From Permianibacter fluminis (lineage in GTDB: Bacteria > Pseudomonadota > Gammaproteobacteria > Enterobacterales > Permianibacteraceae), in the NCBI RefSeq assembly GCF_013179735.1, contig NZ_JABMEG010000001.1, positions 682,001-746,000 of the forward strand: a stretch of 64,000 bases of DNA, given 5' to 3'. The notes under the pieces were generated by a model. That model was not told the origin of the DNA, did not search any database, and saw only the letters and a list, made by a program, of their open reading frames with translations. Of the stretch, positions 36,032 through 54,630 are shown in pieces. The position numbers were made by a program, and so were the translations under genes. How positions within the stretch are numbered: the first letter of the stretch is position 1; every line of letters begins with the position of its first letter.

Positions 36032-36268
36032 TTGGGAACTTCCTTGTTTCTTGTTTATTTGTGGTTTTTTTGACCGACACAATAACGGACGACTGTCGGT
36101 AACGTCGTGACGCTAAAGGCCAGCCCGCAGACTGTCAAGCTGGCGTTCTATGATCTTCGGCAAGCATCCCATTTACTGCATGCACCTTTCTGGCTTGGCA
36201 ACGGCGTCCTCACAGAGGGCTGCGGGCAAAGGCGACCATCTGACCAGTTTCGCTAGCGAAACTGGCCG
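36032..36268. other. Gap with a perfect palindrome
   Basis: CCAGTTTCGC-TA-GCGAAACTGG (36244-36265) is a perfect inverted repeat at the end of the following leftward gene. It has no T-run, so it is either a factor-dependent stop or a protein site. Nothing else is visible. Confidence 0.45.
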
Positions 36269-36808: not shown

Positions 36809-36999
36809 CGTTAATTCTTGGGCTTAGTCAGTCGGTGCCTACATGTATTCATCTAGTTCTCGCCATTGCTTGACAGGGCCCCAGCCCAGATCAGCCAAGG
36901 CGGTCTCCACCGGCAGTATCGCCAAGGTCGGCTGTGCATCTTGTAAAACAAAGAATGTATCTGGCAACAGTTGGTCGCCATGGAAAGGTGCTGTTTGAG

Positions 37000-37668: not shown

Positions 37669-37749
37669 GTTTCGTCCGTATTGATGCTTTTATCGGCAAT
37701 GCCCTTGGCCGGACCGCAGTCAACCTAGGTGCCTGCGTTTATCACTGTA

Positions 37750-38511
37750 TCAATAATCCAGCAGCTCATTGCCCGCTCGTGCGGCATTAACCACTGCGCT
37801 GGAGTCAACAGATAGGTGCTCGTAAGGGCGAGCACCACTCAAGTAGCCATTGGGCGCATGAAACCAGAACGCAATTGCCCACGCGCTGGTGCCGTTCGCA
37901 AAGGACGCCATGATCTGTTTGATCTCAGGGCGCGGGGTGCCATGGACGGGGTCAAACTGATAAGCAGGAAATATTTCCACATTGCCAACGGTGACGGAAA
38001 ATATTTCCTGCCCGGCAGTTAGCTCCGCAATGACTTCGCCAGCACACTCAGCCGAAAGCCCCATCCGTTTGGCTACTCCTTGGTAATCCAAATGCTCAAC
38101 GCTGGAGATAATGTCGTAGCGCAGCTCAGCACCAAGCAGCCGCTGTCTTGTCGTGCCCTCCTGCAGCAACTCTGGCTGGGTAATCAACTCGAATGCCTCT
38201 CTTTGCTGTGACGCTTCATCCTTATTCATGTTTTCGCCATCCCTGATGGCAGGCCCCCAGCCTATGGCCGTCAGCGCCACCTCAAGCGCCTCGACAGCTT
38301 GTCGCCTTGAAGCGTCTCTGGCGAGAGCGAAGTCCTGTTGCGGAACCACACATTTGCCGGTCGTCGAGGTCATGCCATCGATAACGAAGATACCCCTGCC
38401 GCCCGGGTCAGTCGCCAGCAACACATAAATGCCTCGCCCCTCGTAACCTTTGATATCCCAACCCCAGCCGCCGTCATCCCGGCGCCAAACCCGATCCACC
38501 CTGACAGTCAT
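37750..38511 (-). CDS. ParS/MbcA-like protein coupled to tniQ
   Basis: The start overlaps the upstream tniQ stop as ATGA, making it the sixth gene of the tns operon. The last 70 residues (PRPEIKQIMASFANGTSAWAIAFWFHAPNGYLSGARPYEHLSVDSSAVVNAARAGNELL) match the toxin-binding domain of MbcA/ParS antitoxins. The first 90 residues (VWRRDDGGWGWDIKGYEGRGIYVLLATDPGGRGIFVIDGM) are not recognised. No toxin gene follows. It may be a regulator of transposition or an addiction/anti-toxin device; function unknown. Confidence 0.6.
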   Translation of the reverse strand: MTVRVDRVWRRDDGGWGWDIKGYEGRGIYVLLATDPGGRGIFVIDGMTSTTGKCVVPQQDFALARDASRRQAVEALEVALTAIGWGPAIRDGENMNKDEASQQREAFELITQPELLQEGTTRQRLLGAELRYDIISSVEHLDYQGVAKRMGLSAECAGEVIAELTAGQEIFSVTVGNVEIFPAYQFDPVHGTPRPEIKQIMASFANGTSAWAIAFWFHAPNGYLSGARPYEHLSVDSSAVVNAARAGNELLDY

Positions 38512-40223: not shown

Positions 40224-41619
40224 ATTGACCTCCTTCCTGCTTTGCTTGCCACGTCGCCAAAGCCTGACGAGTGACGCCAATGTCGTTGCGATAGTTGCCC
40301 GTCTTGTCGATGAGATAGCAACGAATTAGCTGATTCGCGATGGCAGTTTCTGCGTGCATAAGCTGACGTTCCGGCAAAGCATGCTCAATCTCGCCCAACG
40401 ATATGTAGTGCTCACTTTTTTCACGGCTACCGACAACCAAGCGGCGAACCAAGAGTTCAAACGCATCGAGCGATTGTTGGCGGTGCGTTTGAAACTGGAA
40501 GCGCTTTGCACGTGCACTCCGCTGTACCGGCACTTGCTCGGATGAATGCCGTACCTTCTTCGGCCTTGCGCGATTCAGCCGACGTAGCGAGACCACAGCC
40601 TTTTGCGATTGGTAATAGCCTGGCAATTTCAAAGACCACTGACAGGTACAACTGCTGAGCTTGGGTCGCCTGATCGCATGGACTGTTGGCAACCGAACAT
40701 CACCTGGTTCATGGCTGGAGTGAGTTCGGGCTCGGTCGACAAGCACCAGAAAATCCTCGGCCAGCAATGCCGGCAACCACCTGAAACTGTCGGTGGGTAC
40801 CGGAAGTGGCCATGTCGACGCGACTTCGCCTTGGTTGAGCGCTCGCCCCAACCATCGGCAAGCCGCCAGAAATCCGGTGTCGTTTCGTGGTGGCGGAAAG
40901 CGCTGCGCCAACGCTGCTATGAGAACAAACCGCCAATTGGCGGCATTGCTGAGCAGCCAGTCGCGACATGCAGTGAAATAGCACTGCTGCTCGGCAAAGG
41001 ACGGATCTTTGGGCCGTGGTAGCGCTGTGGAAACCAACGAACGCAGCACGGAAGGTCGCTGCGTTAACGGCACCGACCAGAGTCCCGCCAGGATATCGAC
41101 GGTCGGGCTCTCGCTGGCACCTGACAGCCAGGCATGCACCGCTTGCGCGGTGCATGCCTCGGCTTCATTGCAGGGAAGTTTCGAAAAATGGATGATTGCT
41201 GTTCGGCAGGTTTGACACCGCTGATGCACAAGCCATGTCCACGAGGTTGGCGTTCGACAGTTCGGGCAATACGCGTGCAACTTGATCCCGTGGCGCACAC
41301 AAACCGCGAAATAAGGATGTGCCGCGATCATTGACAGCTTGCTACCCTCGGCAATACAGGCCGTACACAGGGCACCGGCGAGCCACGTGTCGTCCTCTTG
41401 CTCGGATCGGCGTGAGAACATCATCGCGGCACAGAGCTGCTGCTGTTTGATGATGTCGAGATAGCCGTTAACCGGATTTTCGACTACTGCTGCAGTAATG
41501 ACTTTGCGATTCGGCCGCGAAGCCGTGTAGCCATTGGCGCGCAAAGCTCGGTTTACCAGTGATGCCGGAAACTCATCAGCTCCCGTTGCGGGTCGGCGGA
41601 CCAAACGAAGTGTCATCAA
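40201..41619 (-). CDS. tniQ: TniQ/TnsD-like target-selection protein 1
   Basis: The 472-aa protein shares the TniQ zinc-binding pattern: LCTACIAEGSKLSMIAAHPYFAVCVRHGIKLHAYCPNCRTPTSWTW followed by CQTC. Its ATG overlaps the tnsC stop (ATGA), and its end overlaps the next tniQ by 23 bases. TniQ links TnsC to the target-site reader. Two successive tniQ genes without cas genes suggest two protein-directed targeting routes or a division between adaptor and DNA reader. Confidence 0.8.
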   Translation of the reverse strand: MMTLRLVRRPATGADEFPASLVNRALRANGYTASRPNRKVITAAVVENPVNGYLDIIKQQQLCAAMMFSRRSEQEDDTWLAGALCTACIAEGSKLSMIAAHPYFAVCVRHGIKLHAYCPNCRTPTSWTWLVHQRCQTCRTAIIHFSKLPCNEAEACTAQAVHAWLSGASESPTVDILAGLWSVPLTQRPSVLRSLVSTALPRPKDPSFAEQQCYFTACRDWLLSNAANWRFVLIAALAQRFPPPRNDTGFLAACRWLGRALNQGEVASTWPLPVPTDSFRWLPALLAEDFLVLVDRARTHSSHEPGDVRLPTVHAIRRPKLSSCTCQWSLKLPGYYQSQKAVVSLRRLNRARPKKVRHSSEQVPVQRSARAKRFQFQTHRQQSLDAFELLVRRLVVGSREKSEHYISLGEIEHALPERQLMHAETAIANQLIRCYLIDKTGNYRNDIGVTRQALATWQAKQEGGQYVIPLCA

Positions 41620-42566
41620 GCGGCCCTCCGTGTGACGTGAGCGACATTCACCGGCGCGAACGGCTCATACACACCGACCAAGGCGCGCATCCGAAAATCG
41701 GGGTGAAACGGGTTGTCTTCATTCTTGGCGCCAGGCCAGACATAGCGCTGAAACGACAGCTCCAAGTGCTCACGGCTGATGAAATCAGCACCATTTTCGA
41801 GCGCGATATCGCCGGCCAGGCCCACCACTTTGTTGAGGTAATCGATCAAGCCATTTGAGGCAAACCACAACGGCAACAACAGGTTTTCGGTTGAGATGCG
41901 CTGAGTTTGCTCAAACGGCAGCATCGCCTCCAACTTGCGGAGGTAGCGAAAGAACTCCTGCTGATCTGTGGCAGTCTCGACCGAGAACGGCTTGATGACA
42001 TGGTCCAGATTGAAGCGCCGGCGGAACTGTTCGTTGGATTGGCGAATCAACCCCGTACGCGGCAGGCCAACCAGCACAAGAGACACTGGTAGGTCTTCGA
42101 GCAAAACTTTCAGCCAATCACCCATTTCGGCAACAGCATCTTGACCGCGGCGGTCAATGAAGTGCTGGAACTCATCAAGCACGATCACTTTCGTCTTGCA
42201 GCCCTGCAACAGTGTACGTAGCTGTTTGGTGAGCTGGTCCTGGTCGGGTCGGCCCAACACCACGGCGCCCATCGCGCCAATGACATTTCGGGCGACCGAT
42301 TTGGCGGTGGGTCGAGACGGTAAGGTGGCGCATACCACCGGAATTTCGTCGCCTTCGGGGCCATTACTAATCGGATGGTTCTGTCGAAATATTCGGCAAA
42401 GCGTCGACTTGCCGGTACCGGACTCCCCGCACAGCGTGGCGTTAAGCGTCCCGTTCGACTGATAAATCATTTCGAGAGTATCCAGCGCGCGCGCGAATCC
42501 TCTATGGAGAACAGGCGTGTGCGAAACAGCGGCTTCAATGTGCTTGTAACAATTAACCGAACTCAT
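41616..42566 (-). CDS. tnsC: Transposition AAA+ ATPase (TnsC/TniB)
   Basis: The 316-aa AAA+ protein has Walker A GESGTGKS (47-54) and Walker B VIVLDEFQHF (Asp131-Glu132), then GLPRTGLI (sensor region) and RRRFNLDHV. TnsC forms filaments on target DNA and signals from TniQ to TnsA/TnsB. It lies 16 bases after tnsB. Confidence 0.93.
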   Translation of the reverse strand: MSSVNCYKHIEAAVSHTPVLHRGFARALDTLEMIYQSNGTLNATLCGESGTGKSTLCRIFRQNHPISNGPEGDEIPVVCATLPSRPTAKSVARNVIGAMGAVVLGRPDQDQLTKQLRTLLQGCKTKVIVLDEFQHFIDRRGQDAVAEMGDWLKVLLEDLPVSLVLVGLPRTGLIRQSNEQFRRRFNLDHVIKPFSVETATDQQEFFRYLRKLEAMLPFEQTQRISTENLLLPLWFASNGLIDYLNKVVGLAGDIALENGADFISREHLELSFQRYVWPGAKNEDNPFHPDFRMRALVGVYEPFAPVNVAHVTRRAA

Positions 42567-42582
42567 GATTACACCCCCTCGC

Positions 42583-44505
42583 TTAGTTTGCTTCGCAATC
42601 GATAAGGACTTTTGGGGCCTGTGCGGCAGCGACCTGCTGCTGCGTCAAGCCTTTGCGATTCCGTGCGGCCTTACGCTCACCTTCGAGTTTGGCCTTCTGA
42701 GTGCGCTGGCTAAGCTTGGTTTGTGCGGCCATGTCATCGATCGTGTCGACCAGACGAGCGGTTGCATGCGCCTCTTCCATATCAGAACCCTTACGCTTTG
42801 CTTTCAGACGCAATTTGTGTTCGTACAGGCTGAGGCCGACATACTGTTCATGGTGTACGGCTTGAACCAGGACAAAGTCCTTTGAACCGGTCGGCGCGAC
42901 AAATACAGAGGTCAGATCATCCGGGTAGTACCGGACGTCAACGACGATCGTTTCGCCGTACCGCTTGCGTATTTCCTGTAGCTCTGGACTGTTGTATTGG
43001 ATGGAATGAAGTTCAACGCCTTTGTGGCTGAGGGTGCGCGTCGTGAATTCGGACAAGGCGAACTCAAGCGCTTCTGCAGATGCGGGCAGTAAGGGTGGAA
43101 TGATTTCGGCACGGTGATTCCAGCGCTCGATCGGCGGTTCGCCCGTGGTCGAATGCACACGCGGGTGGTACACCTCGATGATCCACTGATGCAGCAGCTC
43201 CTCGAACTGGCTGATCGTGATACAGGCTTCCTTGATCGATTCGTAGTCTTGGCGTTCACTGGCCTTGTAGAAGGAACGACCGGGCAACAGATCACTCACG
43301 CCGCGATTGATGGATTGATTGAACCGCTCAATAACGCCATGCATGTGGGGTTGACGACGCGGAATGAAGATGACATCCGCGCCGAGGTCGAACAGGCTGG
43401 CACGAAGTGACTCGGAATGAAACTCTGAACCATTGTCCAACCAGTACTGCAGCCCAATTCCATAACATGGCCACCGCCAATTTTTTCCAGGGTATTTTAG
43501 GTCCAGGTACTTCTTGGGCATGATCGCGTGATAGAGCGCGCGCTTGACACTCCATGCCGGCGTGCCACCAATGCTGATGGCGTAGCCAAGAATGGCTCGG
43601 GAATAGACGTCGATGATGAGTGTGAGGATGGCCCGCTTGATGACTTTCTCGGTCAGGTCGTCAATCAGAAAGGCATCAATCGGTGTGTGGTCGATCTCGA
43701 CCCGCTCAAGGATGGTGCTGACTTCGACGCCAGCGCCCGACATCCGAAATTTCTTGTCCGCGATCCGACGGCCGTGCCTGGCTCTCTCGACATTATATGA
43801 GGGCAGAGCTCGTAAACGCCGATAAAAGGTTGCACGTGAGGGTAGTGGAATATCGTCGTTATGTTGTTGGTTGTGGCGCGCGATTTGGGAACGTACAACG
43901 TTGAACGCTACTTTGGCAGCCTTGCGCTGTTTTGACAGATATTGCGGCAGCCCAGCTTCTTGAATGAAATGGTCTGTGCGCTTGTCGATTCGGGACCCAA
44001 TTCGGCCGCGCAGGCACTCGCGCCCAATTAAAGCTACTGGATTGTCACCCGACTTCCTGTACTTCCTCGCCCAATACGTTATGGTTCCTGGGGCCGGAAT
44101 CTCCTGTTCTGGGAATCGGATTTTCAGCTCCGTCGTCACGTCTTCCGTGATATCGCTTGTGACGAACTTCTCCTTGCCAACAAACTCTTTCGTGCTCAGG
44201 ACAAGTGCCTGGCGAAACATCGCTTCTGCACGTTGTTTTTCACTGACATGAAGAAGTGATGTCGGTTGGAAGCGCTTTGCGGCCCCCGTTTTTTCGTCGT
44301 ACTGCGGTTTGCTCGCATCCTCGCAGGCAATACGGAGCTTCTTTTCGGAATAGAGGTCGATCAGCTCGGAACGGCTTTTTTGTTGGATGCCGCCGTTCTG
44401 TTCATTCTTGAGCAGATAGGTCTCGTTCTCGTCAATGTTGACGATCTTCCATGGCTTGCCACGGACCGTCAGTTGGGTGCCAACCGTCAAAGTGAGGTGG
44501 TTCAT
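42583..44505 (-). CDS. tnsB: DDE transposase (TnsB)
   Basis: The Mu/Tn7-type transposase of about 640 aa has DDE residues Asp272 (VEIDHTPIDAF), Asp357 (YWLDNGSEFHSE) and Glu393 (HGVIERFNQSI). N-terminal helix-turn-helix domains precede (SDITEDVTTELKIRFPEQEIPAPGTITYWARKY) for end binding, and a Mu-transposase C-terminal beta domain follows. ATG 44505 has GGAGG upstream; the start lies inside tnsA, giving a 74-base overlap. It cuts the 3' ends and joins them to the target. Confidence 0.93.
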   Translation of the reverse strand: MNHLTLTVGTQLTVRGKPWKIVNIDENETYLLKNEQNGGIQQKSRSELIDLYSEKKLRIACEDASKPQYDEKTGAAKRFQPTSLLHVSEKQRAEAMFRQALVLSTKEFVGKEKFVTSDITEDVTTELKIRFPEQEIPAPGTITYWARKYRKSGDNPVALIGRECLRGRIGSRIDKRTDHFIQEAGLPQYLSKQRKAAKVAFNVVRSQIARHNQQHNDDIPLPSRATFYRRLRALPSYNVERARHGRRIADKKFRMSGAGVEVSTILERVEIDHTPIDAFLIDDLTEKVIKRAILTLIIDVYSRAILGYAISIGGTPAWSVKRALYHAIMPKKYLDLKYPGKNWRWPCYGIGLQYWLDNGSEFHSESLRASLFDLGADVIFIPRRQPHMHGVIERFNQSINRGVSDLLPGRSFYKASERQDYESIKEACITISQFEELLHQWIIEVYHPRVHSTTGEPPIERWNHRAEIIPPLLPASAEALEFALSEFTTRTLSHKGVELHSIQYNSPELQEIRKRYGETIVVDVRYYPDDLTSVFVAPTGSKDFVLVQAVHHEQYVGLSLYEHKLRLKAKRKGSDMEEAHATARLVDTIDDMAAQTKLSQRTQKAKLEGERKAARNRKGLTQQQVAAAQAPKVLIDCEAN

Positions 44506-45190
44506 CGTGTCCTCCGGGTGAGATGGGTGTTTCATCAACGAGCGGGGACTGCAAACTCGCGCTCACGTACTTTTGGGCGATCAACGCTAACGCCACCTGC
44601 CTGTCGCCGGTGACGGCAGCGAGCTGCCCAAAATTGGCTGGGGAGTGTCGATAGACAGCATCAACAATCGTTGGAAGCTGAGGCACTGCGTAGCTGAGAT
44701 ACGGCTTGAGCTGAATGAGATTGGAAAGGTGGTAGGCAGCGCTGAAATCGTGTTCGGTTACCACCGAATACAGCAGCCCATGCTCGGCGAGAGCATGGGC
44801 CACGCGAGTCAGGCGCCGTCGAAGCGACTCGTCTTCAGCTAGGCGTTCAGCCGCTTTGATTTCGATTACGAGTTTCCGGCCGGACTTTAGCGTCAGCAGA
44901 AAATCCGGAAAGGCGGAGAACGGTTCTGGTCCCGGCACCCTCACCTCAAGCGCCTGCTCTTGTATCGCGGCCGCAACTGACCAATAAAGGACGGACAAAA
45001 CAAACCGCCGCTCAATCCCAGACTCCGTCGCAATAAAGCGGCGAGCTTTGGGGTCATTCATCCAAGCTCTGACGGTTTCCTTGGACCGGCTCATTGGGTC
45101 ACGGACAGTCGGGTTACCCCAGCGAATTGCTGAGGTGGGCGGTTTTTCGGGCGTGATCAGCCCCCCGCCGGCAAACAGGTCAACCAGCAT
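44432..45190 (-). CDS. tnsA: Transposon endonuclease (TnsA)
   Basis: TnsA cuts the 5' strands at the ends so that the element moves by cut and paste. The restriction-enzyme-like active site is visible as TESGIERRF (Glu60), AFPDFLLTL (Asp96) and LVIEIKAAE (Glu110-x-Lys112). The 252-aa length is near that of TnsA. ATG 45190 has GGAG 8 bases upstream. It is the first gene of the leftward tns operon. Confidence 0.92.
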   Translation of the reverse strand: MLVDLFAGGGLITPEKPPTSAIRWGNPTVRDPMSRSKETVRAWMNDPKARRFIATESGIERRFVLSVLYWSVAAAIQEQALEVRVPGPEPFSAFPDFLLTLKSGRKLVIEIKAAERLAEDESLRRRLTRVAHALAEHGLLYSVVTEHDFSAAYHLSNLIQLKPYLSYAVPQLPTIVDAVYRHSPANFGQLAAVTGDRQVALALIAQKYVSASLQSPLVDETPISPGGHDEPPHFDGWHPTDGPWQAMEDRQH

Positions 45191-45341
45191 TTCTCAATCT
45201 CCAGGCAAAGCTATCCCTGCAGCAGAACGCTGATGGCTTTCCTCAAGGGCGAGTGCCACTACAGCAAGATCCGCTGTTTTCTTTCGCAGCCTTGGTTGGG
45301 GAAAAGACGTCCTGGGAGCCTTGACGCTCAGGGAGGTGATT
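45191..45341. other. Upstream region of the tns operon
   Basis: The promoter of tnsABC must lie here or further right. I see no Tn7-type end repeats in it, in line with the right end lying 9.4 kb away. Confidence 0.4.
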
Positions 45342-45424
45342 CAGATACTTGCACGGCCAGGTGTGGTATCTGATACCCACTCAGAGCGGGACGGCTTCTC
45401 AGGAGGTCGTCCCGTTTTGCTTTT
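45342..45424 (+). ncRNA. Candidate small RNA with two hairpins and terminator
   Basis: CAGATAC (45342-45348) pairs with GTATCTG (45366-45372) with an inner CAC/GTG helix. A second stem CGGGACG / CGTCCCG (45387-45393 and 45408-45414) is followed by TTTTGCTTTT, a good intrinsic terminator on the plus strand. No plus-strand gene precedes it. TTGACG at 45320 could be a -35 element but no good -10 is seen. It lies opposite to and upstream of tnsA. Confidence 0.35.
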
Positions 45425-45806
45425 ATGGGTCCATAGAACCTTCAGTCGAGTTAGCGGTGTTCGTCAGGATGACAAACCGCATCGCATTAATCTGATTGCT
45501 GCCAAGGCGGCCTAGTGCCTCCCACAACGCATCCACCAGTTCGTATTCCTCAGGTGAAGCATTTGTCGGCACCGTTCTGTGCCGTAGCGAAATGCGCGCA
45601 GCTTTCTCTAAAGCTTTGCGCTCGCCTTCTGAAAGCGACAACTCCACAGCCATTCGCTCAATGAACCGTTCCGGCATTCGCCGTGCGCCGGTTTCCAATT
45701 GGCTTAAATAGCTCGCGCCGATCCCCAGCCTCTCAGCTAATTCTGCTTGTCGTATTTTTCGGCGTCGGCGGATATCCGCGAGCACTGCTGAAGCAGGTGT
45801 TGGCAT
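45423..45806 (-). CDS. Xre-family HTH regulator
   Basis: The 127-aa protein has a clear helix-turn-helix: VLADIRRRRKIRQAELAERLGIGASYLSQLETGARRMPERFIERMAVELSL. The C-terminal half is helical and not recognised. It is divergent from the 502-aa gene starting at 45937 and likely regulates it. Confidence 0.85.
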   Translation of the reverse strand: MPTPASAVLADIRRRRKIRQAELAERLGIGASYLSQLETGARRMPERFIERMAVELSLSEGERKALEKAARISLRHRTVPTNASPEEYELVDALWEALGRLGSNQINAMRFVILTNTANSTEGSMDP

Positions 45807-45936
45807 GTCACATCAGGTAGCCGTTATTCGTAGCATCGGAAATTTAGCTCTTCGGCTACCCGCTCGCAACAATTTGATTTATAAAGACAATTTACCCACA
45901 AAACGTGGTTTTACGGTCTTAAAAAGGGCGATTTCT

Positions 45937-47445
45937 ATGGAACAGATTCCACGTATTGAAGCGTTTCCTGAACTGGCATCGCTGTTGGCGCCGATTCCAG
46001 CTTGGTATCCAAATCCGAAAGCCGTGGAGTCCTTTGTGTTGGTCATGTCGTTGCAACCAGAAGACCTGCGTTTGGCTGATGAAGACCAGCCACCGGAAAA
46101 GCATCCACTGTCATTCGTTCTGTGCCATCACCCGATTGGTAAGCTGATATGCCTTTCTGAAGCAGCCGAGGAACGAGAGCAGGCGTTCCGAGCATGGGTG
46201 AAAGGAACTCATCATCTGGAGGTTGAGTTTGTTCGCGTTGTACCTGGCGAGCATCGATTTCAGGCAGCATTCGACACCTTTTCTCGCTCCATAAAGGAAG
46301 AGGAGCGCCATCGATACATCTACTTTCTTCGCCCTCATTACATTGATATTCAGCCCTTCGAGTTTTTTCCAAAGAGTCGCTCTCTGCCCAGAGGAATGAG
46401 GGTTCTTGTCGATGGATCTCGAATGAGGTACTCAAGCGAGCTGGTCAAAAATCAAAGTGTCGGAATTGTATTGCCGAAAGCCGTTCTCAGAACTGAGGAG
46501 GACGGAAAGTGGCGATTGGGATTTTGTGGGCTCACCACGATTCTCTTTGACGACCCGCGTTGGTCGACATTAGTGGACCAGCTCAGCCATGAGTCCACTG
46601 CTCACGTCATGCTGTTGGCCCACAACATTTCAGACATGGAGCAAGCGCTTTCGGTTTTCGCCCATTTCGAACCACAGACCTACATTTCTGTTTCGATGGA
46701 TTTCCATTATGAGAAAGGAAAAGAGGTCGTTTTTACCAGCCCGATCTCAACTTATCATCGTGATATTGATCTTCTCCGTGAGGTTGGCGAAGAGCCAGTG
46801 GTCTTCTTTAATCCTGACTTTGCCGATCCAAACAGTATTGTTTGGAATGAACAGTTGCTTGGCAAAGCGTTTCATCGCTATCTCTTATCAAGGTCGGTTG
46901 ATCGACGCTTCTGTACGGCATTTGTCGTTGGGCGGCGCACTACCAAGGAAGTACGGAAGAGCCTATCGAAGGTTTCCGGACGAGTGATTGAAATTTGCGA
47001 GCACGTGGATTCTGACCGTGGAAATCTTGCGATGGTGTCACATGCAATTGCAGAGGCCTTTCATAACCAGCGTGTCAAACGTGGCTTTGAACTGGTACCT
47101 TTCGAAAGCTTCGAAAAAGCCAGAAACGTGTTGAGAGATGGCGGTACAGATGACCTTAAAGCATTCGCTCGGGCGGCTGTGGCGACCGTCCTAGCAAAGC
47201 CAGAGACAGACGAAAAGATGCCTCGTGGCCAAGCGCTCATGGAGCAATTGCAGGAAATCGCAGCCGGCCACTGGCCAGAAAACGTTTGCCCATTGGACCG
47301 ATTGAGGGATGCTTTTGTCACGCTTCTAGCTGTATTGGCCAAGGACAAGTACGGTGATCAGGATGATGCTGGCCATGTTTTGGGGTTTGCTGATGGAAGA
47401 GGCTTAGACCGATACTTAAAAAGACGAGATGAGTTTGGGTTCTGA
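45937..47445 (+). CDS. Unrecognised 502-aa protein, divergent from an Xre regulator
   Basis: I do not recognise this protein. The start at ATG 45937 has AAGGG 8-12 bases upstream; an in-frame ATG at 45805 would lie over the regulator's own start. It has no signal peptide or membrane span. Parts with regular secondary structure are HVMLLAHNISDMEQALSVFAHFEPQTYISVSMDF and EVRKSLSKVSGRVIEICEHV, and the C-terminus is helical (PENVCPLDRLRDAFVTLLAVLAKDKYG). The paired Xre repressor in defence-rich cargo suggests a controlled effector; that is inference. Confidence 0.7.
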   Translation: MEQIPRIEAFPELASLLAPIPAWYPNPKAVESFVLVMSLQPEDLRLADEDQPPEKHPLSFVLCHHPIGKLICLSEAAEEREQAFRAWVKGTHHLEVEFVRVVPGEHRFQAAFDTFSRSIKEEERHRYIYFLRPHYIDIQPFEFFPKSRSLPRGMRVLVDGSRMRYSSELVKNQSVGIVLPKAVLRTEEDGKWRLGFCGLTTILFDDPRWSTLVDQLSHESTAHVMLLAHNISDMEQALSVFAHFEPQTYISVSMDFHYEKGKEVVFTSPISTYHRDIDLLREVGEEPVVFFNPDFADPNSIVWNEQLLGKAFHRYLLSRSVDRRFCTAFVVGRRTTKEVRKSLSKVSGRVIEICEHVDSDRGNLAMVSHAIAEAFHNQRVKRGFELVPFESFEKARNVLRDGGTDDLKAFARAAVATVLAKPETDEKMPRGQALMEQLQEIAAGHWPENVCPLDRLRDAFVTLLAVLAKDKYGDQDDAGHVLGFADGRGLDRYLKRRDEFGF

Positions 47446-47466
47446 GGTATGCACACAAGCAGTTAG

Positions 47467-47530
47467 TTGCCGGCTCAGTATTCATGCGCGTTAGCAACAT
47501 AGACAGTATGTCGGTCTATTGAGCCGGCAA
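47467..47530. other. Long inverted repeat after the 502-aa gene
   Basis: TTGCCGGCTCA (47467-47477) and TGAGCCGGCAA (47520-47530) are perfect arms with a nested ATAGAC/GTCTAT pair in the loop. It could fold as one RNA hairpin ending the transcript, or be a site for a DNA-binding or recombination protein. Confidence 0.4.
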
Positions 47531-47660
47531 TTCAGTTGAGGCTGACTTATGACTGGTTTCGACCCAAAGCAGACGGAGCAAAAAGTGGCGTTGGCTTTCT
47601 AATGCTGTGAGTTGCCACAAAACGAGAACCCAATGACTCAGCGATACAAATGGGGCACAA

Positions 47661-47670
47661 TGTAGCTACA
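47661..47670. promoter_or_regulatory. Palindrome upstream of the relB-like gene
   Basis: TGTAGCTACA is a perfect 10-bp palindrome 19 bases before the antitoxin start, a plausible autoregulatory operator for a ribbon-helix-helix antitoxin. Confidence 0.35.
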
Positions 47671-47689
47671 AACTACCTTGGGGCATACA

Positions 47690-47884
47690 ATGGCAAGCAG
47701 TAGTGATGTCGTTCGCGCCCGGATTGACGGGCATATCAAAGAGGAAGCAACGAACGTGTTGGCCGGAATGGGCCTGTCTGTTTCGGATGCAATTCGGATG
47801 CTGCTCACTCGCATTGCGGCCGATAAAGCACTTCCCTTTGATATCAATCGTGCTCCGTCCCAATCGGATACCAAGAAGCCATGA
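47690..47884 (+). CDS. RelB/DinJ-family antitoxin without toxin
   Basis: The 64-aa protein ASSSDVVRARIDGHIKEEATNVLAGMGLSVSDAIRMLLTRIAADKALPFDI is a typical RelB/DinJ ribbon-helix-helix antitoxin. ATG 47690 fits the family start better than ATG 47678. The expected RelE/YafQ toxin is missing; the next gene, 48 bases on, belongs to an ABC-three-component system. It is an orphan, or it serves as regulator of the following operon. Confidence 0.8.
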   Translation: MASSSDVVRARIDGHIKEEATNVLAGMGLSVSDAIRMLLTRIAADKALPFDINRAPSQSDTKKP

Positions 47885-47932
47885 GGTCTAGCCTGAAGGA
47901 TTCCAAGAACATTAAGTCACGGGTTTGAATCC

Positions 47933-48853
47933 ATGGATCGCATACAGCAGCTCAACTACGAAAAGGACTTCCGTATTGCCTTCTTGGAATCCAAGGGGGA
48001 CGGGTTTCAACGCCTGTTTGAGAAGCTGATGTCGAAGGCTCACCCCAACGATTTCATGGCTTGCCGTCCCTGGGGTAGTGTTGGAGACCGGAAAAACGAT
48101 GGGTATCTGCCTTCCGCGCGAATCCTGTTCCAGAGCTATGCCCCCAATGAATTGAGCGCAGCCGAGGCCATCAAGAAGATCAACGAAGATTTCGAGGGGG
48201 CCAAAGAGCACTGGGAAGACTATTTCGATGAATGGACTTTTGTTCACAACGCACCCGATGGTCGCTTGGGTCCTCACATCATCGAAGTCCTAGCCAAACT
48301 TGGGCAAGAAAATCCAAAGATCAAAATCGGCCACTGCGGATACGAGGAAATGCTGGCGAAGTTCCGCCAGTTGAGCTTGCAGGATATTGAATCCTGGTTT
48401 GGGCCCTCGCTAACGATGGAAGCGAATGTCAATCTCGGGTACAGCGACCTGATCGCTGTGCTCACCCACATCAGCATCGCTCCTGTGCCTACGGCCAGCG
48501 AAGTGAAGGACGTGTCTCGCGGGAAGATCGAGGCAAACCTCCTGTCCCAAGCTGTAGCTGACTTTCTGAAGATTGGCATGCAGAAGTCGCCACTCGTTGC
48601 GCAGTTCTTCAATAACTGGAAGAACCCTACCTACGGTGAACAAATCGCGCAGGCGTTCAAGAGTGAATACTTGAAGCTGCGGGACGAAATTCCCCAACTC
48701 CATCCCGATGAAATATTCGGCCGCCTCGAAGCATGGGCCGGGGGCACGGCGAATACTACGCCCACGCATAAAGCGGCGGTGTTGGCTGTTATGGCATACC
48801 TATTCGATAAGTGCGAGATTTTTGAAGACGCTCAAGCGGTGGGGGCTGCATGA
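47933..48853 (+). CDS. ABC-three-component system effector-like protein
   Basis: The 306-aa first gene of an overlapping three-gene set. The N-terminal part FQRLFEKLMSKAHPNDFMACRPWGSVGDRKNDGYL followed by ARILFQSYAP resembles PD-(D/E)xK nuclease-like domains, with Asp in RKNDG and a QSY in place of the usual QxK. The C-terminal 150 residues are helical and match the ABC-3C C-terminal type. Its stop overlaps the start of the middle component by four bases. It may be the nuclease or effector arm of the system. Confidence 0.65.
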   Translation: MDRIQQLNYEKDFRIAFLESKGDGFQRLFEKLMSKAHPNDFMACRPWGSVGDRKNDGYLPSARILFQSYAPNELSAAEAIKKINEDFEGAKEHWEDYFDEWTFVHNAPDGRLGPHIIEVLAKLGQENPKIKIGHCGYEEMLAKFRQLSLQDIESWFGPSLTMEANVNLGYSDLIAVLTHISIAPVPTASEVKDVSRGKIEANLLSQAVADFLKIGMQKSPLVAQFFNNWKNPTYGEQIAQAFKSEYLKLRDEIPQLHPDEIFGRLEAWAGGTANTTPTHKAAVLAVMAYLFDKCEIFEDAQAVGAA

Positions 48854-49098
48854 TCCTGCCGTCGAAACATCTGCCGCAGGACCGCGCGCTATTGACCGTC
48901 GGCGCGCATGTTCTGACTTTTCTCGAACTGCCAAAGACTGTCTCCGCACTTTGGGATGAATTGAACAGGCATGAGGCAGGCCTGGCTGCAATGCCTCGGC
49001 GAATTACTTACGACTGGTTCCTGCTCGCCCTCGATCTCCTGTACGCCCTTGGGACCATCGAACTTGAGAGCGGCCTTGTGGCACGGAGGACAGCTTGA
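48850..49098 (+). CDS. ABC-three-component system middle component
   Basis: The 82-aa protein (LTVGAHVLTFLELPKTVSALWDELNRHEA... ITYDWFLLALDLLYALGTIELESGLVAR) looks like a small winged helix and matches the middle-component family I know as ABC-MC6. It overlaps both neighbours by four bases, so all three genes are translated together. Confidence 0.75.
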   Translation: MILPSKHLPQDRALLTVGAHVLTFLELPKTVSALWDELNRHEAGLAAMPRRITYDWFLLALDLLYALGTIELESGLVARRTA

Positions 49099-50816
49099 TT
49101 CATCACATTTTCAGCACGCTGCCCAGTTTCAAGAGCCTTGGAGATCTGAAGCCCGGCCTGAATGTGCTGCTTGCTCAAAAAACCGAGGGTGCGACCAGCA
49201 AGCAAACGCGCAATCGCGCCGGCAAGACCAGTTTCGTTGAGCTTGTGCATTTTCTGCTTGGTTCCGACGCTGGTCCGGACTCGATATTCCGCACCCCGGA
49301 GTTGGCGGAGCACACCTTCGGCATGGACTTCGACCTGAAGTCAGAACGCACGGTCGTCGAGCGCAGCGGTGGTTCCAAAGCCAAAGTCTTCATGGCAGCC
49401 CCGCCAGCAGCGAAGGTCAAGTTTTCGGCCACCGATTGGTGTACGTTCCTCGGCGAACAAATGTTTGGTCTGAGCAGCCTTGAAGCTGCAGGCAGCAAGC
49501 CTCCTTCGTTCCGGTCGCTGTTTGCCTACTTTGTGCGCCGACAGTCGAGCGGTGCCTTTACGACGCCGGAAAAGCAGGCCGCTATGCAGGGTACTGGCGA
49601 CATGCAGATGGCGCTGATGTTCCTGCTCGGATTGGACTGGCAGATTGCCCGGGATTGGCAAGCTGTTCGCGATCGGGAAAAGACCCTCGAAGAGCTGAAG
49701 AAGGCAGCTGGGAACGGCGCATTCGGTTCAATCATCGGTAAGGCCGCTGACTTGCGCACGGAGCTGACCATTCAGGAAGCTCGTCTCAAGAAGCTTCACG
49801 CAGAAGTTGAGACTTTTCATGTCTTGCCGGAATACCGAGAACTGGAAGTTGAAAGCGCCATGTTGACACGCCAGCTCAATGAGTTGGCCAACGCCAACAC
49901 CATCGACTTCACGGCTATTCGTGATCTGGAAAGCGCACTTGCCTCCGAGGTTCCTCCAGACCATGAAGACCTCCAAGCGGTCTATCAAGAAGCAGGCGTC
50001 GTACTTCCTGGACTGGTCAAGCGCCGCTATGAGGACGTGAAGAGCTTTCACGAATCGGTGGTGCGCAATCGCAAAGACTATCTGTCCAGTGAACTTGAAG
50101 CTGCCAAGCTGCGTATCGAGCTGCGTGATAGTAAGAAGGCGCAGCTCGATCGGCGGCGCGGTGAAATCCTGGGCATTCTCAAGAGCCACGGTGCGCTCGA
50201 ACAGTTCCTTAAACTGCAAGGCGAACTGGGACGGCTGGAATCAGAAGTGGAATCGTTGCGACAACGCTTCGAGGCTGCCGAGCAGCTCGAAGGCACCAAG
50301 AACGAGTTGGAGATCGAGCGCAACCGCCTCACGATCCGCCTTCGGCGTGATTTCGCCGAGCAGAAGGAGCGATTGGCCGAAGCCATCGTCGCCTTCGAGG
50401 AAACTTCACAACGCTTGTATGAATCGGCCGGCAGCATGACTGTCGATGAAACTTCCAATGGGCCGATATTCAAATTTCCGATGCAGGGCGAACGCAGCAA
50501 GGGCATCAAAAACATGCAGATCTTCTGCTTCGACATGATGCTGATGCGTTTATGCGTCAAGCGGAAAATCGGGCCGGGATTCCTGATCCATGACAGCCAT
50601 CTGTTTGATGGTGTTGACGGGCGCCAGGTTATCAGTGCATTGCGACTTGGCTCAGAGATCGCGCAGGAGCTTGGTTTTCAGTACATCGTGACGATGAATG
50701 AGGACGATGCCTTCAAGGAGACCATCGATGGCTTCGACCTTAACGACTATGTGCTGCCTAAACGTTTAACTGATGCCACTGAAGATGGTGGGCTGTTTGG
50801 CATCAGATTTGGATGA
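49095..50816 (+). CDS. ABC-three-component system ATPase (DUF2326)
   Basis: The 573-aa SMC/RecN-like ATPase has a P-loop in QTRNRAGKTSFVEL (near residue 40), a long coiled coil (about 230-440), and an end domain with FDMMLMRLCVKRKIGPGFLIHDSHLFDGVDGRQ, which holds the signature and Walker B-like Asp, closing in GGLFGIRFG as DUF2326 proteins do. Such proteins form membrane-free ABC ATPase dimers in predicted phage-defence systems. A methionine or leucine start is not in doubt: the start is the ATT/TTG-adjacent codon at 49095 (TTG) overlapping the previous stop. Confidence 0.8.
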   Translation: MIHHIFSTLPSFKSLGDLKPGLNVLLAQKTEGATSKQTRNRAGKTSFVELVHFLLGSDAGPDSIFRTPELAEHTFGMDFDLKSERTVVERSGGSKAKVFMAAPPAAKVKFSATDWCTFLGEQMFGLSSLEAAGSKPPSFRSLFAYFVRRQSSGAFTTPEKQAAMQGTGDMQMALMFLLGLDWQIARDWQAVRDREKTLEELKKAAGNGAFGSIIGKAADLRTELTIQEARLKKLHAEVETFHVLPEYRELEVESAMLTRQLNELANANTIDFTAIRDLESALASEVPPDHEDLQAVYQEAGVVLPGLVKRRYEDVKSFHESVVRNRKDYLSSELEAAKLRIELRDSKKAQLDRRRGEILGILKSHGALEQFLKLQGELGRLESEVESLRQRFEAAEQLEGTKNELEIERNRLTIRLRRDFAEQKERLAEAIVAFEETSQRLYESAGSMTVDETSNGPIFKFPMQGERSKGIKNMQIFCFDMMLMRLCVKRKIGPGFLIHDSHLFDGVDGRQVISALRLGSEIAQELGFQYIVTMNEDDAFKETIDGFDLNDYVLPKRLTDATEDGGLFGIRFG

Positions 50817-50938
50817 ATGCAAGATTGATGGCGGTTGAAATATTGGAGTGTGCCTGAATTCCAGGAGTTCCATGGGCATCGGCAATCGGGGCAAGTAAGG
50901 CCACACCATTCACCTGAGATCTGCGAGAGATAAGAAGC

Positions 50939-51712
50939 ATGATTGGGCAAAGAACCCGCTATTCGTTCGCGCAATTCCTGGAGCTTCAAGAGCCCATGAA
51001 TTCAATCGTGCTCTTGGGCAAATACGGCGTGCAACATTTGTCGCTGCTGCACGGACAACTGTTGCACGGTTTACTGAACACGCTGCGCGGTCTCGATGAC
51101 CGCACGCTCATGCTGGCGCTGACCGAGGTCGTTGCGACTGCGGGCGATCTGCGGGCCAGGGTCAATCCGAAATATCGGTTCGACGAGCGCCTGCACGACC
51201 TGGCGCAATGCCTGCTGCTGGACGGTTACATCATCCAGGGCAAGAAGCTGGTTCAAACCGATCCGTCGATTGCCGATGCTGCGCCCTTGGAAGACGACCT
51301 GATCGACGCATTACAGAACTCGGGAGCTCCTCGTGCGCAGGAAATTATCGCTAAGGTCAACGACTCGGCTGGCGCGTTCCGGGCGACACCGCCCGACTAC
51401 AACGCCTCGCTTGTGAACGCCCGTGTCGCGCTTGAGACGTTGGCTGGTGACGTAGCCGCAAATGTCGCCTCACAGCAGCAGATACCCCCCACCTACAACT
51501 CATCGAAGTGGGGTGAGGTGCTTGCATTCCTGCGCAGCAGCGGCGAGATCACGGTCGAGGAGGAAAAAGGATTGGCTGGCGTGTTCGGTTTTCTGAGTCC
51601 TGGCGCTCACCGTCCGGTGGGCATCCCGGAAGATCAGATGACGCGACTCGGCCGCTCCTTCGCGCTCAATATGTGCTGGTTTCTGCTAAAGAACCACCTC
51701 GCGCGAAACTAA
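50939..51712 (+). CDS. Abortive-infection-like helical protein (HEPN-like C-terminus)
   Basis: In the 257-aa protein the last 120 residues contain YNASLVNARVALETLAGDVA and EVLAFLRSSGEITVEEEKGLAGVFGFLSPGAHRPVG, a layout like the C-terminal domains of AbiJ-type and other HEPN-like proteins. The N-terminal 110 residues are helical and not recognised. It lies 41 bases before the SIR2-like gene on the same strand and may form a two-gene system with it. Confidence 0.55.
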   Translation: MIGQRTRYSFAQFLELQEPMNSIVLLGKYGVQHLSLLHGQLLHGLLNTLRGLDDRTLMLALTEVVATAGDLRARVNPKYRFDERLHDLAQCLLLDGYIIQGKKLVQTDPSIADAAPLEDDLIDALQNSGAPRAQEIIAKVNDSAGAFRATPPDYNASLVNARVALETLAGDVAANVASQQQIPPTYNSSKWGEVLAFLRSSGEITVEEEKGLAGVFGFLSPGAHRPVGIPEDQMTRLGRSFALNMCWFLLKNHLARN

Positions 51713-51753
51713 CAGCCTTGACCGCCCCGACTTGAATACGCAAGGACCGACGC

Positions 51754-52758
51754 ATGCCGTTTGAGATCAAACCTTGGGAAGCGATTGCTGAGGACTACGG
51801 GTGCACAATTCTGCTGGGCAACGGAGCTAGCATTTCTGTGAACCCGAGCTTCTCTTACGGCTCGTTACTCCAACATGCCGCTGAGAATAACCTCCTTCCC
51901 GGGGATGCTCAGCGGCTGTTTGATTTCTTTCAGACCAACGACTTCGAGCTAATTCTTCGGATCGTCTGGCAGGCATCGAACGTCAATCAGTCGCTGCGCA
52001 TACCGGACGAACGAACCCATGCTGCCTATGTGAGTCTCCGGGACTGCCTCATACAAACAGTCCGCGACATTCACCCGGAGCACGATGCTGTTAGCGCACA
52101 CTTGCCGAGCATTTATCAGTTCCTGAAGCGGTTCAGAACCGTCATCTCACTCAACTACGACTTGGTGCTGTACTGGGCCATGACCTATGGGCTGGATGTC
52201 GAAGACCAGCATGCTTTCAAGGACTGCTTCGTGGACGGTGGCGCCTTCGATGATGACTGGCAACGTTTCAGACAGCCGATCCGAGGGGACCGTTCAACCA
52301 CGCTTGTGTTTTATGCCCATGGCAGTCTGGTGCTGTGCCGAAACTTGGTGGAGCAGGAGCGCAAGATCCACAATGTTCAGGACGGGTTGCTGGAGGCGAT
52401 CCTGCAACGCTGGCAAAACGGAGAAGTCGTGCCTTTGTTCGTGAGCGAGGGAACATGGCAGCAGAAAGTTGCTTCCATCCAAAACAGCTACTACCTCTCC
52501 ACGGTCTACAGAGAGGTCCTGAAATCGCGGCAGGACACGCTTGTGGTCTACGGCTGGGGCTTCGCCGACCAAGACATCCATCTCCTGCAGCGTATGCGAG
52601 ACACGGGCATCAATCGTGTAGCGGTTTCTGTATTCCGAGGGGATCAGGCGTACTGCAACCGGATATTCCAGATGATCCACGACATCTTGGGCGCGCATGT
52701 CGAAGTGGAGTTCTTCGGCAGCGAGAGTCCCGGTTGCTGGATTCACCCAACTCACTGA
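51754..52758 (+). CDS. SIR2-like protein (DUF4917)
   Basis: The 334-aa protein has the marks of a SIR2-type NAD+-binding fold: CTILLGNGASISVN (residues 17-30) in place of GAGxS, TVISLNYDLVLYW with the Asn-Asp pair, FYAHGSL with the catalytic-type His, and LVVYGWGFADQDIHLL near the end. DUF4917 proteins are described as SIR2-like and other SIR2-like defence proteins destroy NAD+ on phage infection. NADase activity here is inference. It shares the transposon with a full NAD+ rebuilding cluster. Confidence 0.75.
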   Translation: MPFEIKPWEAIAEDYGCTILLGNGASISVNPSFSYGSLLQHAAENNLLPGDAQRLFDFFQTNDFELILRIVWQASNVNQSLRIPDERTHAAYVSLRDCLIQTVRDIHPEHDAVSAHLPSIYQFLKRFRTVISLNYDLVLYWAMTYGLDVEDQHAFKDCFVDGGAFDDDWQRFRQPIRGDRSTTLVFYAHGSLVLCRNLVEQERKIHNVQDGLLEAILQRWQNGEVVPLFVSEGTWQQKVASIQNSYYLSTVYREVLKSRQDTLVVYGWGFADQDIHLLQRMRDTGINRVAVSVFRGDQAYCNRIFQMIHDILGAHVEVEFFGSESPGCWIHPTH

Positions 52759-52940
52759 GCTCATTCTTCGAATGCGTAAACCGACTAATGGGTTTCGCTT
52801 AGGTTCTACCCATTCTGCGAACTCATTTCGACCGTCCGCTTCTGGCCGAAAGCGACCAATAGCAACCGCTCATTTCACAACTTCTGAGTCACTGCATTGC
52901 GACAGCTGTTTTTCGTAGATGTGCAAAATAAAGCGTAGGC

Positions 52941-53825
52941 TCATAGGCGGTGGAGACGGATAAGTTCTTGGGCCTCATGTAAGGCAGCCGAGTACAGGTC
53001 GTTACTGTTGTGGCAAAGCCTAGCTACAACCGAACGATGCGCCTCCTCGCTCGTCGAAAATTCTATGACGCCGAATCGCCCAGCAATCTCGCTCAGTGGA
53101 GCCTTTCCCCACGAGTCCTCTGCCATACCATCAGGGTGGATCACTACACTGTGCACATATCCACTAGCAGCTCTCTTAGTCCCTTCGAATCGAGGCGAGA
53201 ATCGCTTTGCAATTAGTCCCACAGGGGTCAGCCCGGTTAGCTCCTTCATCGCCTCTGCATAAGGTGCGCACCGGCCGTATGTGAATGTCGCCGCTCTATC
53301 TGCCGGCAAACTTGGCGAGTTTCTCTGTGGGATGGAGGCAAGGAAGTGGAAATTCAAAGCGATCGCTTCTGACGCTCGCTTGATATTTGCCTCGTTAGGC
53401 TGAACACGTAAGGGCTGGCGTGTAAGACCCTCCTCACTATAATAACGCGTGTAAACCCCACCACCACTCAATTGCATCTTGGTAGCGAGTGGTTGAATAA
53501 TGCGCTCGTTGTATTCAAAAAATGACCGTACACCTCGAACATCGAAGACCAGCTCGCTATTGTCTGCAACGTGGACGCGTAGAGGCCGGAGCTTGTCGGT
53601 GGTGATACTTTCTTGATGTTCCACTGAGTTGGACAACCAGTCCACTTGCAATAGCCATCCCGTTATTCGTGCGAGTGCGACAGCAAAGTCCACGCAGTCG
53701 TTGGTTTCCCACTCCTCAATCAAATTCGGAGCGAAAGCCGCTCTCTGCTTTATCCGGGCTTGTCCCATACGGCACATATCTCCAGCGAGTCCTGCAATGG
53801 CGTTGAAAAATTGGCTGTTCATCAA
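52941..53825 (-). CDS. Protein with two papain-like Cys-His-Asp units
   Basis: I find no named family, but the 294-aa protein appears to contain two copies of a papain-like pattern. Unit 1: Cys44 (NDCVDFAVALARITGW), His85 and Asp95 (LRVHVADNSELVFDVRG). Unit 2: Cys187 (GRCAPYAEAMKELTG), His226 and Asp238 (YVHSVVIHPDGMAEDSWG). The Cys-to-His distances are 41 and 39. Such folds occur in peptidase, amidase and deamidase toxins. A ribbon-helix-helix gene lies upstream on the same strand, so a toxin role is possible. Confidence 0.5.
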   Translation of the reverse strand: MMNSQFFNAIAGLAGDMCRMGQARIKQRAAFAPNLIEEWETNDCVDFAVALARITGWLLQVDWLSNSVEHQESITTDKLRPLRVHVADNSELVFDVRGVRSFFEYNERIIQPLATKMQLSGGGVYTRYYSEEGLTRQPLRVQPNEANIKRASEAIALNFHFLASIPQRNSPSLPADRAATFTYGRCAPYAEAMKELTGLTPVGLIAKRFSPRFEGTKRAASGYVHSVVIHPDGMAEDSWGKAPLSEIAGRFGVIEFSTSEEAHRSVVARLCHNSNDLYSAALHEAQELIRLHRL

Positions 53826-53936
53826 CCATTGCGCAAGGTTGAAGAGACGAACGCTACGTACCGCTTTGGTTTCCTCACGCTCAACCGTGACTTTGAAATT
53901 GCGGTTCGGTGGTTGGATTGTTTAGATCATTCTGAC

Positions 53937-54146
53937 TCACAGCCCCACAATTTCCGTTTCGAGTTGTTTGGTTTGTGGGTTGGCCAAACCGAGCTTCAAG
54001 CCCCGCTGCTTTCCCTCACGAGCAGCGAGATATAGTTGGAGGGCTTTCCGCAAAATTTCACTTTTGTTGGTTTCGGCTTCCGCTACCACACGGTCGAGTT
54101 CATTGTTAAGGTCATCAGAGAGGACCACGTTGAAACGGACGCTCAT
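53937..54146 (-). CDS. Ribbon-helix-helix (CopG-type) regulator/antitoxin
   Basis: The 69-aa protein SVRFNVVLSDDLNNELDRVVAEAETNKSEILRKALQLYLAAREG is a classic ribbon-helix-helix; the C-terminal tail GLKLGLANPQTKQLETEIVGL is of the kind that binds a partner. No standard toxin gene is adjacent; the papain-like gene follows after 111 bases. Two 19-bp direct repeats stand in front of it. Confidence 0.85.
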   Translation of the reverse strand: MSVRFNVVLSDDLNNELDRVVAEAETNKSEILRKALQLYLAAREGKQRGLKLGLANPQTKQLETEIVGL

Positions 54147-54159
54147 GGCAATTACTTCC

Positions 54160-54200
54160 TATGCACAATTAATGCGTAAAATATGCACATAAATTGCGTA
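54160..54200. promoter_or_regulatory. Direct-repeat operator of the ribbon-helix-helix gene
   Basis: TATGCACAATTAATGCGTA (54160-54178) and TATGCACATAAATTGCGTA (54182-54200) are two near-identical repeats 22 bp apart, right before the start codon; ribbon-helix-helix proteins often bind such paired sites to repress their own gene. Confidence 0.6.
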
Positions 54201-54541
54201 TCTCGCAATGAGCCGCAGAATAATAGTCTTTGGAAAAGTGGCCCTTTTTTTCAACGCAATATGCTGACGTGGCCGAGCCTCCAATCCCAATCGGTGGCTC
54301 GGCCTTACAGTCGGTACCAACGTGCAGTTCGCTGTGCTGGTGCCCGTTCGGTGATTCGAGCCGGCTGGACCCGGCCCACAAGCAGAACGGTCGGGTCACC
54401 TCATTGAATGGCCGCCCTGTCGAGGTGGGCCGGTTTGGCCGGAAATTCGGTCCGGTACCTACACTTACAGACACTGTTCCCGGTAAATAATGAAGAAATC
54501 GCCACCAACTACTCATTTAAGTAACACGTTGATATTAAAGA
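54201..54541. other. Gap near the right transposon end
   Basis: No convincing gene. A perfect 9-bp stem GGCCGAGCC / GGCTCGGCC lies at 54271-54304 with a 16-base loop and no T-run. Confidence 0.45.
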
Positions 54542-54563
54542 AAAAGGCCCTTTCGGGCCTTTT
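54542..54563. terminator. Terminator just inside the right transposon end
   Basis: AAAAGGCCC-TTTC-GGGCCTTTT is a compact hairpin with T-runs in both directions. It can stop gyrB read-through into the element, in place of the displaced native terminator at 16636-16660. Confidence 0.8.
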
Positions 54564-54585
54564 CTGTTTGGACGTCTATTCGGTC

Positions 54586-54625
54586 TTATTGTGAGAATTC
54601 GAACGCCTTATTGTGAGATCCCACA
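54586..54625. repeat. Right end of Tn7-like element with abutting TnsB-type sites
   Basis: TTATTGTGAGAAT (54586-54598) and TTATTGTGAGATCCCACA (54608-54625) repeat TTATTGTGAGA at a distance of exactly 22 bp. The end is ...CCCACA, the complement of the left TGTGGG. Abutting 22-bp TnsB sites are the hallmark of the right end of Tn7. Confidence 0.8.
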
Positions 54626-54630
54626 ATTTT
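54626..54630. repeat. Target-site duplication, right copy
   Basis: ATTTT follows the right end directly and equals the five bases before the left end (16670-16674). Four bases separate it from the gyrB stop codon. Confidence 0.85.

Follow-up and report, generated by a model that had tools for sequence, protein, structure and literature searches.

A Tn7-like transposon inserted directly behind gyrB of Permianibacter fluminis carries both a set of genes for the salvage of nicotinamide adenine dinucleotide (NAD+) and a gene for a DUF4917 protein, which we consider likely to be a SIR2-type NAD+-hydrolysing (NADase) defence effector that rides on the transposon as independent cargo. The DNA analysed here, called the window in the following, comprises 64,000 nucleotides of contig NZ_JABMEG010000001.1 (positions 682,001 to 746,000), and the coordinates of its features are collected in Table 1.

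The DUF4917 protein covers the profile PF16263 over its full length (1-311 of 311; E 3.1e-161, 536 bits compared to a gathering cut-off of 28), a family whose Pfam entry gives no function. PADLOC-DB assigns it to PDC-S21 (E 1.3e-124), where we take PDC to mean candidate, with an additional weak match to Aga_SIR2 (E 6e-5). In the open literature of PubMed Central (PMC), with subscription papers lying outside this scope, the name PDC-S21 was not found and DUF4917 is named in a single paper. The initial annotation had noted SIR2-type motifs in the protein, and these are indeed present (GNG at residues 22-24, NYD at 134-136 and HG at 189-190) and conserved. An alignment of 26 homologues with identities down to 22% shows GNG, E65, NYD, D157, HG and K238 without exception (26/26), and in an alignment of 52 sequences N23, G24, E65, N134, Y135, D136, D157, H189, G190 and K238 are invariant (52/52). 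Alignment A1 excludes loci L035 and L049 as well as the fragmentary matches L037-L043, and from the structure alignment A3, 12 of the 54 viral loci were left out as fragments or near-duplicates, as was L049, in which DUF4917 is interrupted; here, about 1.6 kb of inserted DNA splits the gene near codon 277-287 (L049:8861-10501). The host genome contains a single DUF4917, and the family is rare among relatives, occurring in 2/59 genomes and in 11/369 of a class sample (own genome counted in both). A second SIR2-like protein is encoded elsewhere in the host (G000:C1:1671296-1671826; SIR2_2, E 2.2e-12). Viral contigs yielded no match when searched with the single DUF4917 protein and 54 loci when searched with alignment A1, so that the lack of a DUF4917 match in GenBank phage records does not mean absence from prophage-like contigs.

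The predicted structure points in the same direction. The AlphaFold2 model of the DUF4917 protein (predicted local distance difference test, pLDDT, 91.1; predicted template modelling score, pTM, 0.91) finds its top Foldseek match in SIR2-HerA (8sub, E 2.1e-10), followed by ThsA, KomC and DSR2. At E <= 0.001, 41 Protein Data Bank chains from SIR2-HerA, PsSIR2, ThsA, KomBC/KomC and DSR2 entries are matched, six of which belong to 8yhx, an entry whose title names HerA only. VIA-align superimposes the model on PsSIR2 over 290 residues (Z 17.1, root mean square deviation 4.7). A passage in PMC11263360 lists N133, Y134, D135 and H171 as catalytic residues of DSR2 and N112, Y113, D114 and H152 as those of ThsA; by motif, N134, Y135, D136 and H189 of DUF4917 correspond to this N-Y-D and H. 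In line with this, a profile alignment to 8j4u places NYDL on NYDL and HG on HG, with a weak match overall (E 0.12). Model and motifs together support a fold of the SIR2 NADase type in which the catalytic signature is intact, and we regard DUF4917 as a probable SIR2-type NADase effector.

Compared to known systems, the SIR2 proteins of SIR2-HerA (Nezha-type) are the closest solved folds, aligning over nearly the full length and sharing N-Y-D and H-G, yet the identity amounts to only about 11-18%, no HerA family was found among the genes scanned in 45423-53825, which include the cassette genes, and DUF4917 mostly stands alone. The SIR2 domains of ThsA, DSR2 and KomC combine the same fold with the same catalytic set. 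ThsA and DSR2 have extra sensor domains, whereas no added domain is seen in the 334 residues of DUF4917 (DSR2 chains comprise about 920-990 residues). Among the 26 homologues, three match the AbiH family (best E 3.9e-6), to which the window protein shows no match at E <= 0.1.

That the NAD+ genes and DUF4917 share one element, as the initial annotation had also claimed, is confirmed by the transposon boundaries, since inverted ends and an ATTTT target-site duplication (TSD) enclose both. With 13 of 15 matching positions, this end pair ranks first among the 102 TSD-matched TGT/ACA pairs examined (runner-up 11/15); the duplication itself is low-complexity. Only 4 bp separate the right TSD copy from the gyrB stop codon. 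The repeat TCTCACAATAA, which might represent a TnsB site, has three exact matches in the window, compared to 0.54 expected at <=1 mismatch. Joining the flanks in silico after excision of the transposon restores gyrB together with an intrinsic terminator, and in a genome of the same family (G002) a terminator likewise follows gyrB, with no transposon end there. A genome of the same genus (G001) shows two similar ends behind gyrB that lie 12.9 kb apart (L027 about 18230-18290; G001:C1 2119412 and about 2132271) and lack a matching TSD. That two genomes from one genus have Tn7-like ends immediately after gyrB suggests that gyrB serves as attachment site. A search for the end pair restricted to 26-54.7 kb had returned a single weak pair; it was the TTATTGTGAGA repeats behind gyrB that pointed to 16.7 kb and thereby revealed the left end. 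Two earlier interpretations were dropped because G001, too, carries related element ends behind gyrB: that TTATTGTGAGA is chromosomal, as a similar sequence behind gyrB of G001 had implied, and that DUF4917 lies outside the element, an argument built on the position of tnsA. In Tn7-like elements, tnsA is usually located at the right end.

The tns genes of the element are oriented leftwards, from 45190 to 38508. Relatives of its TnsB at E <= 1e-60 occur in only one of the 369 genomes of the class sample besides its own, and on plasmids no relative close enough for a comparison of the ends was found (all <60% identity). With published Tn7-like transposons, as portrayed in parts of Benler 2021 (PMC8649781) and Faure 2023 (PMC10293859), the element has in common the TnsB- and TnsC-like genes, possibly also a TnsA-like gene (match below cut-off), the TGT...ACA ends, the 5-bp duplication, a site just behind an essential gene and defence cargo. 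It differs from these surveys in its gyrB site and in its NAD+ salvage cargo: a gyrB-type target is mentioned neither in the main text of PMC8649781 nor in the portions of PMC10293859 reached by word searches, the string 'NAD' is absent from the main text of PMC8649781, and titles and beginnings of abstracts in the open literature contain no report of NAD+ salvage genes as Tn7 cargo.

From the fold, the signature and the neighbourhoods we infer the NADase activity of DUF4917, its trigger, the growth arrest and the role in defence. According to this proposal, DUF4917 would act against phages or other mobile elements; upon triggering, hydrolysis of NAD+ by the protein would release nicotinamide and ADP-ribose, and the infected cell would be killed or cease to grow. 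The gene mostly travels as a stand-alone unit and is here the last gene of an ABC-3C cassette; the NrtR-controlled salvage cluster would represent separate metabolic cargo, acquired and regulated independently. Defence genes are found next to several homologues, namely retron Eco8 and ABC-3C in K. pneumoniae, a TIR protein in Aliarcobacter, AbiEii and HipA in Azotobacter and Hhe in Vibrio.

In the window, DUF4917 closes a discrete 5.1-kb block of five genes that is shared with L044, L046, L047, L048, L049 and L053; the shared stretch extends to the DUF4917 stop codon or ends a little ahead of it. The hosts are beta- and gammaproteobacteria, among them Lysobacter chinensis (L044), Acidovorax (L047) and Paraburkholderia (L053). 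The block contains a complete ABC-3C tandem of CTD10 protein, MC6 middle component and DUF2326 ATPase, followed by the 257-residue protein o50939; NCBIfam holds no relevant family for the cassette genes. The model of o50939 (pLDDT 71) has no significant Foldseek match (best E 0.7) and weak rows of HEPN toxins, so that the protein is possibly HEPN-like. DUF4917 may be either the effector of this cassette or its passenger. If it were the terminal effector, the ABC-3C ATPase would sense the invader and the 257-residue protein would relay the signal, a scheme that fits five co-oriented genes with short gaps, kept as one block in 6/10 named loci, and the adjacency of o50939 and DUF4917 in a seventh (L045, at a contig end; thus 7/10 in total). 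Loci L050-L052, however, contain DUF4917 without the cassette block, most homologues lack both partners, and o50939 is present in only 7 of the 81 DUF4917-matched loci. As most homologues stand alone, self-sufficiency of DUF4917 is favoured, and we regard its service as terminal effector as possible, yet doubtful.

Several observations weigh against DUF4917 as a NAD+-hydrolysing defence effector carried as independent cargo. The SIR2_2 profile matches the window protein only at residues 129-278 and below its cut-off (E 0.0086; 16.6 bits, cut-off 24.5), and at E <= 1 it is matched by 4/26 homologues (best E 4.1e-5); such a match is not indispensable, since this profile can overlook distant SIR2 families. 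Several plasmid neighbours of DUF4917 homologues are non-defence genes. The 88 loci fetched around homologues, 81 of them matched in tblastn, contain no detectable salvage gene of the window types; some, however, span only about 3-6 kb, too little to reveal salvage genes farther away. Finally, a SIR2 fold alone is no proof of NAD+ hydrolysis, since deacylase and ADP-ribosyltransferase activities also occur among SIR2 proteins. DUF4917 could accordingly resemble SIR2 in fold and yet act as an ADP-ribosyltransferase or merely bind nucleotides. Sirtuin folds do have several activities, the invariant E65, D157 and K238, which lie apart from the usual motifs, might point to another substrate, and a section of PMC9503650 discusses sirtuins as possible ADP-ribosyltransferases. 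As DUF4917 has the complete N-Y-D ... H set known from DSR2 and ThsA, and as its closest folds are defence SIR2 proteins, such a divergent activity appears unlikely.

The salvage genes (18946-27358) occupy the left arm of the transposon. Their probable NrtR operators consist of two perfect palindromes in the gap between nrtR and pncA, and sites related to these also precede the SPFH gene. On Rhizobium etli p42f (L171), NrtR-like, SPFH, sugar kinase and AAA ATPase genes occur together; the SPFH and 'sugar kinase' genes may hence belong to an NrtR module. A search of phage records for NrtR matched 62 records, and the two plasmid NADAR contexts examined are unrelated.

According to the initial annotation, NAD+ rebuilding and NAD+ depletion on one element would let the element survive its own or a foreign NAD+-depleting defence. 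The underlying biochemistry is sound: as excerpts of PMC11535050 describe, the NADase toxin NatT relieves the repression of NrtR-controlled salvage in Pseudomonas aeruginosa, and this salvage in turn counteracts the toxin, although NatT is a RES-domain enzyme and DUF4917 is SIR2-like. The same idea underlies the phage pathway NARP1, for which parts of PMC12774641 describe a rebuilding of NAD+ in the face of NAD+-depleting defence; NARP1 uses Adps and Namat, whereas the window holds PncA, PncB and NadE (Adps and Namat were not searched for). In a coupled circuit of this kind, ADP-ribose derived from the NADase would lift NrtR from its operators, and PncA, PncB and NadE would rebuild NAD+ from the nicotinamide set free, making an activation that is leaky or transient survivable. 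Besides the common element and the operators, such a circuit is favoured by the release of NrtR from DNA by ADP-ribose in Mycobacterium, as given in a portion of PMC6800001, and by the second NadE that the element brings besides a full-length copy elsewhere in the host genome.

The functional pairing itself, however, finds no support here. Salvage genes do not accompany DUF4917 in related loci (the 88 mentioned above), and a nicotinate phosphoribosyltransferase (NAPRTase) was found within 100 kb on the DUF4917 contig in none of 10 genomes: in four none was found, six have one, and only in the Acidovorax genome does it lie on the DUF4917 contig, at a distance of about 104 kb, with contigs distinguished by their lengths. 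ADP-ribosylglycohydrolase (ARH) homologues occur in 21/369 genomes, own included; the 20 neighbourhoods examined, several of them on short contigs, contain no other salvage gene, DUF4917 or TnsB. NAD+ genes are likewise missing beside the cassettes of L046 and L044. NrtR-type operators of the quality seen at pncA are absent from the cassette region (45100-52760), leaving no operator common to cassette and salvage cluster; an operator-like palindrome with an 8/10 match at 47499, just outside the cassette, was not counted because 8/10 matches occur elsewhere. Only one such element was seen. Judged from these sequence comparisons, DUF4917 and the salvage cluster appear to have arrived independently, a coupled circuit seems quite improbable, and coupling, if real, may reflect a chance combination of cargo and not a system that evolved as such. 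A self-limiting immune circuit, in which the host would recover from sub-lethal or foreign NAD+ attack and heavily infected cells would die, is compatible with the absent co-occurrence, as it needs neither a shared operator nor co-evolution, but strikes us as very unlikely.

Table 1. Features of the window, with position, strand and the evidence for each.
Feature	Position	Strand	Evidence
TSD ATTTT, left copy	16670..16674		flanks left end
Tn7-like transposon, 37,951 bp, holds NAD+ cluster and DUF4917	16675..54625		inverted ends, TSD
Left transposon end TGTGGGATCCCATAA	16675..16689	+	13/15 match to right end
Repeat TCTCACAATAA, possible TnsB site	16762..16772	+	inverted copies 54586-54596, 54608-54618
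SPFH/Band 7 protein, first gene past left end	16984..18006	+	PF01145 E 6.6e-17
'Sugar kinase' / NAD kinase-like protein	18003..18920	+	by eye; no Pfam match
NadR-like	18946..19971	-	nucleotidyltransferase and AAA_28 kinase domain
PnuC transporter of nicotinamide mononucleotide/nicotinamide riboside (NMN/NR)	19904..20545	-	PF04973 E 4.5e-20
NADAR	20473..21045	-	PF08719 E 5.1e-52
ADP-ribosylglycohydrolase	21064..21984	-	PF03747 E 2e-80
NrtR-type regulator (Nudix and winged helix)	21981..22721	-	PF21906 (NrtR_WHD) E 8.9e-24
Probable NrtR operators	22767..22826		two perfect ATAGT-N11-ACTAT palindromes (22767, 22806), nrtR-pncA gap
PncA-like nicotinamidase	22874..23539	+	PF00857 E 1.7e-14
PncB nicotinate phosphoribosyltransferase	23572..24741	+	PF04095 E 6.2e-78
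NadE NAD synthetase	24752..26449	+	PF02540 E 3.1e-71
KptA/Tpt1 RNA 2'-phosphotransferase	26810..27358	+	PF01885 E 2e-46
Probable second TniQ/TnsD-type protein	38508..40280	-	TniQ E 0.027, HTH_17 E 3e-4, below cut-off
Probable TniQ/TnsD-type target selector	40201..41619	-	position; no Pfam match
TnsC/TniB-like AAA protein	41616..42566	-	PF05621 TniB E 2.2e-27
TnsB-like transposase	42583..44538	-	Mu-transpos_C E 4.7e-8; plasmid relatives annotated beside TnsA
TnsA-like endonuclease	44432..45190	-	PF08722 E 5e-4, below cut-off
Mobile five-gene cassette, DUF4917 last	47647..52756	+	blastn block, about 81-87% DNA identity
ABC-3C component, CTD10 C-terminal domain (PADLOC PDC-M68A)	47933..48853	+	PF20275 E 1.9e-26
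ABC-3C middle component MC6	48850..49098	+	PF20293 E 2.2e-17
ABC-3C ATPase (DUF2326 / CTD10; PADLOC PDC-M68B)	49095..50816	+	Pfam, PADLOC matches
o50939, 257-aa gene	50939..51712	+	41-nt gap to DUF4917; no Pfam match
DUF4917 coding sequence, predicted SIR2-like NADase	51754..52758	+	334 aa, ATG start
Catalytic codons (predicted)	52153-52161 (N134-Y135-D136); 52318-52320 (H189)	+	within DUF4917 coding sequence
Right transposon end, reads TGTGGGATCTCACAA inward	54611..54625	-	13/15 match to left end
TSD ATTTT, right copy	54626..54630		gyrB stop codon 54635-54637

The window has further features. The stretch that separates the tns genes from the cassette contains a gene for a 546-residue protein without significant Pfam, PADLOC or NCBIfam match (45805-47445), oriented divergently from an XRE regulator (45423-45806). 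An RHS-repeat protein is encoded at 30234-35588, its C-terminal piece being partly duplicated (30675-30800 and 31656-31781, 78%), and a repeat pair of 87% is located at 35665/52740. Outside the left transposon end, at 8681-15758, a restriction-modification-like cluster (helicase/R, S and M-like) was recognized by eye from the translations.

The surroundings of the cassette in other genomes illustrate its mobility. In L046, from a metagenome-assembled genome of the Burkholderiaceae, TniQ and TnsD genes are found just upstream (L046:204-3284), so that the cassette there probably resides in another Tn7-like element, and in L044 AlpA and tyrosine integrase genes are located nearby. The defence cassette hence moves intact between unrelated mobile elements. 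For DUF4917, a family without assigned function, the structural model and the motifs provide a concrete assignment as a probable SIR2-type NADase effector with N134 and H189 as predicted catalytic residues. If DUF4917 does act as a NADase, the compounds it makes would both induce and supply the salvage operon of the same transposon. With its salvage regulon and its probable NADase, this single mobile unit provides a natural setting in which to ask whether repair of NAD+ modulates NAD+-depleting immunity.
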